NCBI GenBank assembly: GCA_005884005.1 | Contig: VAWI01000069.1 | Coordinates: 1-64,000, forward strand | DNA: 64,000 nucleotides | Direction of reading: 5' to 3' | From: Actinomycetota bacterium | GTDB taxonomy: Bacteria > Actinomycetota > Thermoleophilia > Gaiellales > Gaiellaceae | Shown: positions 8,738-57,634 of the stretch, piece by piece | How positions within the stretch are numbered: position 1 is the stretch's first letter | How the letters are laid out: every line of letters starts with the position of its first letter | Position numbers and translations under genes: made by a program | Notes under the pieces: model-generated | What the model was told of the DNA's origin: nothing | Database searches by the model: none | What the model saw: the letters and a program-made list of their open reading frames with translations, nothing else

Positions 8738-10573
8738 CTAGCGGACCCGTTCCTTGGCCTGCGCCGCCCACTTGAGCGACTGCAGGTAGAGCAGCGACTT
8801 CGGGCGACGCAGTACCTGGGCCGAGCGGAGGCTGGCGAGGAACTCGTCGCGGTCGTGGAACTCGCGCATCCGGAGGGCGCCGGTGCCGACACCCTGGAGC
8901 ACGTGCGCGTCCGAGCCGGCGCCCATCGTCAGGTTGTACTTGCCCGCGAAGCGCAGCGATTCCTCGTTGTAGCCCTCGAAGAGCAGTCTCGCATTGTAGA
9001 CCTCGAAGACGTCGATCTCGTCGAGGTGGCGTCGAAGGGTCGCCGCGTCCGGAATCGAGTGCATGCGGTCGAACGGGTGGGGGAGATAGACAACGCCCCC
9101 CTGCTCGTGGATCGCTGCCAGCGTGTCGGCGAAGGGCAGTCCGCGGGGGATCTCCTCGGTCAGGAACAGGCCGATCACCTCGCCCTGGTCGCCCGTCTTG
9201 ATCTCCTCTCCCGGGACCACGGTCAGGCTCGTCGTTGCGGCGAGCGCCTCGAGCGCGCCGCCGAAGACGTTGTGATCGGTGATCGCGATCGCGCCGAGCC
9301 CTTCGGTCTCGGCGTGCGTGAGCAGGTCCAGAACCTCGATCGCGCAGTCGTGCGACCACGACGTGTGCATGTGCAGGTCGCAGACGATCCATTCTCGCCC
9401 CGAGAGAGGATCGTCTTTGCTGGCGGCGCGCCGCCGTTTCGCGAGCTTGCGGTAAAGCGCATCGTGCTCGCTCGCGAGCCGGGCGAAGGTCTCGCCTTCG
9501 GCCCGCTGTCGGTTCTCCCGGCCTTCGCGCTGGCGCAATGCGTCGTCCTCGGCAAGCCTCGCCGTTGCAGCGCCGGCCAGCTCGGGCTGCGCCCGCAGAC
9601 CGGGCGGCGCAGCGATCGCCGCGCCGGCGGCGGCCGCTTCGAGCGCGACCCGATCGAGGCCGTCGAGCGCGGGGACGAAGATCGCCGACTCGTTGAGCAA
9701 GGCTGCGCGTGCCGGGCCACTGCGAGCGGTGCGTACGCTGACTCGGCCGACGAGCGCGCGCGGGATCGTCGGCCGGCCGCTGAGAGGCTTCGTCCGCAGC
9801 AGGACGAGCTCCCACTCAGGCAGTTCTCTCAGCTCTCGCAGCACCGAGCGCGCGAGTTGCCGCTCCGTGGGCCGCCATTCGAGCACGATTCGCTTGTGCT
9901 CTTCGGCCGGCCGGAATAGCTCGGCGTCAACGCCTGTGAAGATGATCCGGTAGTCGCCGGGCAGGCGCTCTGCGGCAGCAGCCGCGGCCTCGGGGGAGGT
10001 CGCGAGCAGCGCGTCGACTCGGGAGAGCAGGCGCTCGCGCTGAGGCTTCCCGGGCGGGTAACCGAGCCGCTCCGCGGAGAGGAAGGTGGCGACGCCGAGC
10101 GCGTGCGAGTCGCGCAGCGCCAGGTACGACAGGCTTGGCAGGCCGGGCTCGAACCCGTGAACGATGTCGAAGCGGCCGCGCTGCAGCGCGAGTGCCAGGT
10201 TTGCCCGGACGCCAACCGGAACCCCGATCCGGCTTCGTCGCGAGACCGGCAGCGCCGGGCCGAGCGCGATCACCTCCGCGCTCCGTGGTGCAGATCGGCG
10301 GCGGGTGGCCCCCGACAAGCCGGTTTTGGCGGAGCCGCGGGCAAAGCCCGCAACTCCTTTTTGGTCGGCGCCGACAAGCGGCGCCTCAGCACCAACGCCG
10401 TCAAGCAATGCTCGTCTGCCGGCGACGAGGTCGGACGCGCGAGTCGAGGGGGCGAGCACCGTGACCTCGTGCCCGAGCGCTCGGAGCTCGCGGGCGAGGC
10501 CGTCGACGTGTTCGTTGACGTCGTGCGGCCGCGACCAGGCGAAAGGAGTGACCAGACAGACGCGGAGACCCAC
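8738..10573 (-). CDS. Fusion of a family-4-type glycosyltransferase and a PHP metallophosphoesterase domain
   Basis: The protein has 611 residues. Residues 1 to about 390 form a GT4-like glycosyltransferase, with an N-terminal Rossmann start MGLRVCLVTPFAWSRPHDVN, FDIVHGFEPGLPSL and PALDGLDRVALEAAAAG. From about 405 there is a PHP domain with DLHMHTSWSHDC, ITDHNVFGG, HPFDRMHS and GSDAHV, the metal-binding His/Asp set. It lies directly downstream of Ino1 and PI-phosphate synthase, which suggests glycosylation of an inositol lipid, with the PHP part hydrolysing a phosphate ester (inference). Residues of about 60-97 are a low-complexity insertion. It corresponds to an in-frame copy of palindromic repeat family C and interrupts the usual GT4 N-terminal fold. 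Confidence 0.85.
   Translation of the reverse strand: MGLRVCLVTPFAWSRPHDVNEHVDGLARELRALGHEVTVLAPSTRASDLVAGRRALLDGVGAEAPLVGADQKGVAGFARGSAKTGLSGATRRRSAPRSAEVIALGPALPVSRRSRIGVPVGVRANLALALQRGRFDIVHGFEPGLPSLSYLALRDSHALGVATFLSAERLGYPPGKPQRERLLSRVDALLATSPEAAAAAAERLPGDYRIIFTGVDAELFRPAEEHKRIVLEWRPTERQLARSVLRELRELPEWELVLLRTKPLSGRPTIPRALVGRVSVRTARSGPARAALLNESAIFVPALDGLDRVALEAAAAGAAIAAPPGLRAQPELAGAATARLAEDDALRQREGRENRQRAEGETFARLASEHDALYRKLAKRRRAASKDDPLSGREWIVCDLHMHTSWSHDCAIEVLDLLTHAETEGLGAIAITDHNVFGGALEALAATTSLTVVPGEEIKTGDQGEVIGLFLTEEIPRGLPFADTLAAIHEQGGVVYLPHPFDRMHSIPDAATLRRHLDEIDVFEVYNARLLFEGYNEESLRFAGKYNLTMGAGSDAHVLQGVGTGALRMREFHDRDEFLASLRSAQVLRRPKSLLYLQSLKWAAQAKERVR
10331..10385 (-). repeat. Repeat family C copy inserted in frame in a coding gene
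   Basis: Read on the minus strand, this is a first hairpin GGCGCCG-CTTGT-CGGCGCC (10367-10385), then GACCAAAAA, then a second hairpin with 12-nt arms around a TTT loop (arms 10331-10342 and 10346-10357, forward coordinates). The same order occurs at 14715-14767 and around 57531-57584. Here the element is translated as part of the glycosyltransferase-PHP protein without a stop or frameshift. Confidence 0.75.
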
Positions 10574-14673: not shown

Positions 14674-14767
14674 GCGGTGACGCGGCTTGCACTCGTCCTC
14701 GTCACCGCGGCCAAGGCACCGCTTGCGGTGCCGACATGGAGGACATGCGGGCTTTGCCCGCGTGTCC
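14674..14767 (+). repeat. Run of three hairpins including repeat family C
   Basis: The hairpins follow one another. CGCGGTGAC pairs with GTCACCGCG (14674-14682 / 14701-14709). Then comes GGCACCGC-TT-GCGGTGCC (14715-14732). Last is GGACATGCGGGC-TTT-GCCCGCGTGTCC (14741-14767). The last two, joined by GACATGGA, are the family C unit also seen at 10331-10385 and 57531-57584. The structure fills the space between the small acidic gene and the EamA gene. Confidence 0.75.
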
Positions 14768-14783
14768 GTCCTAGCGTTTGGCT

Positions 14784-57471: not shown

Positions 57472-57530
57472 GCCTTCCAAACCCGGCTTGTGGAATCGGC
57501 GTGGTTGCGGAACAAACTGGGGGTCGTATG

Positions 57531-57584
57531 AGCGGTTGCTTGCGATGCCGACCTGGAGGCCGTAGCGGCTTTGCCGCTGCGGCC
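57531..57584 (+). repeat. Repeat family C, second intergenic copy
   Basis: GCTTGCGATGCCGACCTGGA leads into a perfect-length hairpin, GGCCGTAGCGGC-TTT-GCCGCTGCGGCC (57558-57584). The 12-3-12 layout, the single G-U wobble at stem position 6 and the TTT loop match the copy at 14741-14767. The first hairpin is degenerate here. Direct repeats CCAAACCCGGCT flank the region (57478 and 57587). The whole 163-bp spacer (57472-57634) has no gene. Confidence 0.75.
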
Positions 57585-57634
57585 GTCCAAACCCGGCTGA
57601 GGGAACAGCCTCCCCCAGGGAGGGCCGACGCGGT

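Follow-up and report, generated by a model that had tools for sequence, protein, structure and literature searches.

A double-hairpin repeat lying in frame within a GT4-PHP gene and other conserved genes of Gaiellaceae

Rickettsia palindromic elements are said to have been described by Ogata et al. in 2000 and 2002. They are short palindromic repeats that are present in many copies and lie in frame within conserved protein genes (PMC2229807, PMC10969869). The GTAG and CGTC classes of REPs are single hairpins of 20–40 nt with a tag at one end, and intragenic REPs are recorded in Opitutus, Thauera, Xanthomonas and others, in a paper whose main text does not contain the word 'Actinobacteria' (PMC3733652). 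Bacterial MITEs, as outlined in two papers, are non-autonomous, shorter than 200 bp, bear target-site duplications and occasionally form in-frame fusions to genes (PMC2229807, PMC10969869). For Actinomycetota, the RepRanger paper gives REP counts for three species in a main text without the terms 'intragenic' or 'coding sequences' (PMC12306157). Judged by titles and the starts of abstracts, searches of one library of openly licensed papers yielded no report of in-frame palindromic inserts in this phylum.

Here we analyse a 64,000-nt stretch of DNA (the window) from the genome of an uncultured member of the Gaiellaceae (Thermoleophilia, Actinomycetota; G000), together with its congeners G001 and G002. 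Its GT4-PHP gene contains one copy of an element that shares two features with Rickettsia palindromic elements: a many-copy palindromic repeat family in one genome, and in-frame inserts of about 100 nt in conserved genes whose orthologues lack them. The Rickettsia elements belong to an alphaproteobacterial parasite, whereas the present element occurs in a free-living, GC-rich actinobacterial lineage. Also unlike them, it consists of two hairpins and a tail, shows direct repeats of 13–21 nt at some copies, forms tandem arrays of ~110-nt units and is dominated by one reading frame of its main hairpin. By analogy, the element would thus work like a Rickettsia palindromic element. The earlier note had drawn this parallel, and it holds as a likeness of behaviour, not of sequence kinship.

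The other two classes offer partial matches. As with the GTAG/CGTC REPs set out in PMC3733652, the hairpins lie mostly between genes and near gene 3' ends, with a minority inside genes and presumably translated; as in that account of CGTC elements, no transposase is known. The present element is ~90 nt long, has two hairpins and lacks GTAG, and thereby departs from the published single-hairpin form. In the consensus, hairpin 2 is indeed followed by CGTC, but its stem has 12 pairs and the tail reads CTAAACCCGG, whereas the CGTC stems described in that paper have 8–9 bp and a short tail. With MITEs as outlined above, the element shares a non-autonomous nature, a length under 200 bp and in-frame fusions; target-site duplications are possible at a minority of copies. 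In contrast to MITEs, the element has so far been linked to no parent insertion sequence, nor were terminal inverted repeats recognised in it.

The insert in the GT4-PHP gene

The GT4-PHP ORF is free of stops throughout, with GT4 domains (PF13439, PF13579) in its N-terminal part and PHP domains (PF02811, PF13263) in its C-terminal part. Alignment of 18 orthologues showed that columns 61–97 are occupied only in the window gene and its G001 counterpart, the segment being absent from the other 16. The G002 gene represents an empty site, reading RRALLDGVSAEVIALGP, where the G000 protein is longer by 37 residues; in G001, 37 residues stand at the position matching the G000 insert. These results bear out the claim, first made from the window sequence, that a family copy lies in frame in the N-terminal half of the protein and adds about 37 residues (about 60–97) without stop or frameshift, and the same residues did not turn up in distant orthologues. 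The coordinates proposed at that time, 10331–10385, take in hairpin 2 and most of hairpin 1 and fall short of the whole insert (Table 1).

Table 1 Positions of the GT4-PHP gene, its insert and the repeat copies in the window
Feature	Positions	Strand	Basis
GT4-PHP protein gene, 611 aa	8738–10573	−	ORF, Pfam, 18-row alignment
In-frame insert of 37 codons, 111 nt in all; residues ~61–97, ends uncertain by a few codons	10283–10393	−	Site empty in G002 and in 15 further rows
Repeat core, matched by R1 over all 70 model positions	10316–10387	−	68.9 bits
Hairpin 1, 7-bp arms, 5-nt loop	10367–10385	−	Arms 10367–10373/10379–10385, perfect inverted repeat
Hairpin 2, 12-bp arms, 3-nt loop, read in the protein as VAGFARGSA	10331–10357	−	Arms 10331–10342/10346–10357
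Second copy, between presumed moaA-like and EamA-like genes (names read from translations)	14713–14782	+	Single-sequence search, R1
Third copy, between presumed L,D-transpeptidase-like and TlpA-like genes (names read from translations)	57529–57599	+	R1

The identity of the segment was examined with a covariance model, R1, built from 41 copies of G000. R1 matched the GT4-PHP copy with an E value of 5e-13, this copy being one of the 41 training rows. Independently of the model, the repeat stretch of the window used as a single-sequence query retrieved other copies in the genome at E values of 2.6e-14 and 7e-12. The minus strand at 10305–10395 folded more strongly than all of 200 dinucleotide shuffles (z −2.7). 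Similar segments are common in GC-rich genomes, and the peptide search gave many weak matches, as would be expected if the segment were an ordinary lineage-specific loop expansion, or a low-complexity GC-rich stretch merely resembling the repeat. Such an origin is nevertheless scarcely credible: dispersed copies match the repeat stretch at the nucleotide level and in both orientations, the G001 site, outside the training set, was matched by R1 at 50.9 bits, and the same element occurs at six further sites in other genes.

Comparison of the two bearers showed that hairpin 1 is identical letter for letter and the tail similar; hairpin 2 differs in sequence, with its folding kept. One insertion event in the common ancestor of G000 and G001 is the simplest reading. 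We also considered whether 33 identical nucleotides in the two GT4-PHP copies were exceptional, and rejected this, as other parts of the gene have identical stretches as long as 63 nt. For the gene without the insert, dN/dS is 0.11 between G000 and G001 and 0.10 and 0.13 against G002; within the insert it is 0.53 between the two bearers (36 codons). The gene is therefore under constraint, and the insert more loosely so.

In an AlphaFold2 model of the GT4-PHP protein (18 sequences, mean pLDDT 67), residues 60–98 form a coil with pLDDT below 50, between a helix (46–57) and a strand (101–104). The low pLDDT fits a surface loop without proving it. This moderate model places the segment in a loop, as had been anticipated, and the wording that the repeat 'breaks' an otherwise normal fold was too strong for a low-confidence coil predicted between a helix and a strand. 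Collectively, the segment is very probably a copy of a small non-autonomous mobile element, tolerated as an in-frame insertion in the gene.

The repeat family and its spread

The element is ~90 nt long and consists of two GC-rich hairpins with a short spacer between them, followed by the tail. R1 gave at least 150 scored matches in G000, at least 144 of them at E ≤ 1e-3, and 149 in G001. Carriers make up 15 of the 61 genomes searched and all belong to one family: all four genomes of the genus carry the repeat, together with 11 from further genera. Under stricter filters, R1 matches were absent from 22 of 37 genomes of the same family and from all 24 of other families. Named neighbours are metagenome bins of Gaiellaceae and Thermoleophilia. 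Both sides have changed in 13 of the 18 base pairs of R1, and 95.1% of alignment cells are paired compared with 82.0% in shuffles, although the structure was derived from that same alignment, which favours it over slid controls. Both hairpins covary, and the copies form a double-hairpin repeat family. Its copy number and the pattern of presence and absence suggest that the element is mobile.

The window holds three clear copies, two of them intergenic and one inside the GT4-PHP gene. An Rfam search of the window returned tRNA only, and a scan of viral contigs with a 30-nt piece of the consensus gave no match. Other long direct repeats, 80–90% identical, are also present in the window (45187–45354/52514–52688 and 47457–47624/49892–50059). 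For 295 copies of G000 and G001, 12 cases of a tRNA gene no more than 40 nt away were counted; as one copy was counted at two tRNAs, they represent 11 copies. Copies near tRNAs include L122, L132, L245, L333, L437 and others, and some arrays repeat a tRNA 5' or 3' end along with the element. In G001, the locus L400 (G001:C103:24837–26507) has a copy at ~801 in a ribosomal protein operon, between genes that we take to be rplC and rplD. At many gene-end copies (for example L107, L112 and L129), the frame of the upstream gene often stays open until the element begins, and the opening bases of the element (TGAGG or similar) may provide the stop codon of that gene.

Tandem neighbours are spaced 106–119 nt apart in 53 of 54 pairs, mostly 109–111 nt, and the repeated unit takes in local flank such as tRNA gene ends. 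We compared the flanks of 94 single copies with mismatched pairs: scores of at least 12 were reached by 8.5% and 1.0%, respectively (rank test p 2e-4), a resemblance that is clear in a minority only. At L247, 20 of 20 flanking nucleotides are identical, with 89 nt from the model start to the second copy. The 4Fe-4S site described below has 14 of 20 alike, and its net gain is 111 nt. No direct repeat was detected at GT4-PHP (score 4.6) or LipB (4.0); the control mean, from somewhat longer flanks, was 7.3. The direct repeats of 13–21 nt at some copies may be decaying target-site duplications. Those typical of MITEs are shorter than this. Four of the seven genic sites described below gained only 60–63 nt, short of a full unit; thus trimming or a second insertion mode must be assumed.

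The many copies, the hairpins and the places near gene ends, together with one Y1 transposase gene in G000, recall classical REPs spread by a RAYT (Y1 tyrosine) transposase. However, Y1 genes occur in 37 of the 61 genomes irrespective of the repeat (Fisher p 0.13), and none was found in three carriers (G003, G024 and G028). Moreover, no copy lies within 1.5 kb of the sole Y1 gene of G000 (best E 0.63), and the eight Y1 loci examined, this one included, held no repeat match at E < 0.01. A GTAG (or GTGG) head at the hairpin end is absent from the consensus of 41 copies, and the account in PMC2817692 has IS200/IS605 enzymes making no larger target-site duplications. Spread by RAYT is therefore unlikely, and a RAYT transposase is not supported as the mobilising enzyme.

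In-frame copies in other conserved genes

To locate genic copies, we scanned the 295 copies of G000 and G001 with E < 1e-4 (weaker ones were listed as well), applying a codon model to both flanks, reading the translations and requiring a single frame to stay open through the copy. Recognisable proteins contain eight copies, at seven sites, each stop-free and in frame. Besides the GT4-PHP copies (sense, +37 residues in each of G000 and G001), there are three more in G000 and three others in its sister species G001, so the search for further in-frame copies that the earlier note had proposed was productive. In G000, LipB carries a sense copy (+37 residues) absent in 26 of 28 parsed loci (of 30), a count of loci without the long insert, a few of which have some extra residues of their own. 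A 4Fe-4S subunit carries an antisense copy (+37 residues; absent in 7 of 8 parsed, L321 having nine other residues), and TrpE a sense copy (+20 residues; absent in 16 of 17 parsed, of 30). In G001, an Lhr-like helicase carries an antisense copy (+21 residues relative to G000 and G002; absent in 5 of 6 parsed), and sense copies add 21 residues each to TrpC (absent in 3 of 4 parsed) and PurL (6 of 7). The net gains are 60–63 or 111 nt. Pfam assigned the segments at these sites to LplA-B, chorismate-binding, 4Fe-4S, helicase C, IGPS and AIRS_C, from which the gene names were read. All of these assemblies are metagenome bins, and for six of the seven sites the evidence comes from a single bin each. 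The genic count is a lower bound, because old copies and copies near gene ends escape the scan.

A peptide search for further in-frame copies gave mostly chance matches (51 of 61 genomes at E ≤ 1) and was discarded. The LipB locus L140 of G004, a different genus, has a 50-residue insert at the same position as that of G000; without any R1 match, it was rejected as a copy of the element. Its DNA forms a stronger fold than most shuffled versions (z −2.1; equalled by 8 of 200). The LipB loop carries unrelated hairpin-rich inserts in G000 and G004, as if it were a hot spot.

A control scan dropped the demand for the same frame and covered 283 testable copies, the TrpE and G000 GT4-PHP copies falling below its threshold. 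Coding-like open flanks on one strand were found at 34 copies; the frame was kept across 13 of these and changed across 21. Judged by eye, all 21 frame-changing cases are junctions of neighbouring genes, and the 13 same-frame cases comprise seven gene junctions and six interrupted genes. By this visual inspection rather than homology search, no out-of-frame interruption of a recognisable gene was found. These data bear on whether the segment is removed or skipped, as would be the case for introns, inteins and translational bypassing elements, leaving a mature protein without it. The strong hairpin and an enzyme fold that does not need the segment would suit such a process. Nevertheless, a segment that is taken out could do without both frame and freedom from stops, and all eight genic copies keep both; no frame-changing interrupted gene was seen, and the dN/dS of 0.53, from 36 codons only, likewise speaks against removal. 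We consider it very unlikely, and prefer a tolerated insertion whose segment is presumably translated.

The sense-oriented sites further share a reading frame. At all five, the codons across hairpin 2 are GGC-TNN-GCC, which encode GFA, GSA or GLA, and the peptides are rich in Gly, Ala and Arg, with stretches such as GRTGFARAAAS. The loop could be placed in all but 78 of the 295 copies; of the 210 non-genic copies counted, 106 have no stop in this frame across the core, and the other two frames are open in 147 and 148. The consensus tail gives TAA in the GGC-TNN-GCC frame. Were sites drawn by the share of open frames, five of five in one frame would have a probability of 0.0013, for a small sample (five sites) and a hypothesis formed on the same data.

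A possible history of the element and its meaning

We propose that the GT4-PHP gene received the element once, in the ancestor that the two congeneric species share. Insertion probably duplicates 13–21 nt of target, a full unit adding ~110 nt, so that repeated ~110-nt units of element plus duplicated target would build up the tandem arrays. Most copies would persist between genes or at gene ends, and a genic copy would survive only if its net length were a multiple of three, it held no in-frame stop and its peptide were harmless. In GT4-PHP, the main hairpin would be read as a Gly/Ala/Arg-rich stretch that forms a flexible loop at a helix–strand junction of the N-terminal domain, and the enzyme presumably keeps working despite it.

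A further-reaching version can be offered only tentatively. The element may be copied by a non-RAYT enzyme that cuts the target strands 13–21 nt apart, and its central hairpin may encode, in one frame, a flexible Gly/Ala/Arg-rich linker. Copies lacking the tail stop in that frame could then serve as a standing supply of in-frame loops for core enzymes, with selection acting on both the DNA hairpin and the peptide.

Features that look new are the phylum, the presence of two hairpins, the direct repeats and the bias towards one frame. So far, discussion of protein-coding palindromes has centred on Rickettsia and a number of other species, most of them proteobacteria. Here, a small, selfish-looking DNA hairpin with more than 100 copies in a soil bacterium sits inside several conserved enzyme genes and leaves their reading frame intact. 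The seven sites, for each of which empty orthologues are available and which include core enzymes such as LipB, TrpC and PurL, make enzyme tolerance and frame selection, an old question, directly testable and provide a natural set of presumably tolerated loop insertions of 20–37 residues. That the element occurs in a free-living, GC-rich family of actinobacteria, many of whose species have been sequenced, suggests that neither parasitism nor genome decay is a requirement for the phenomenon.
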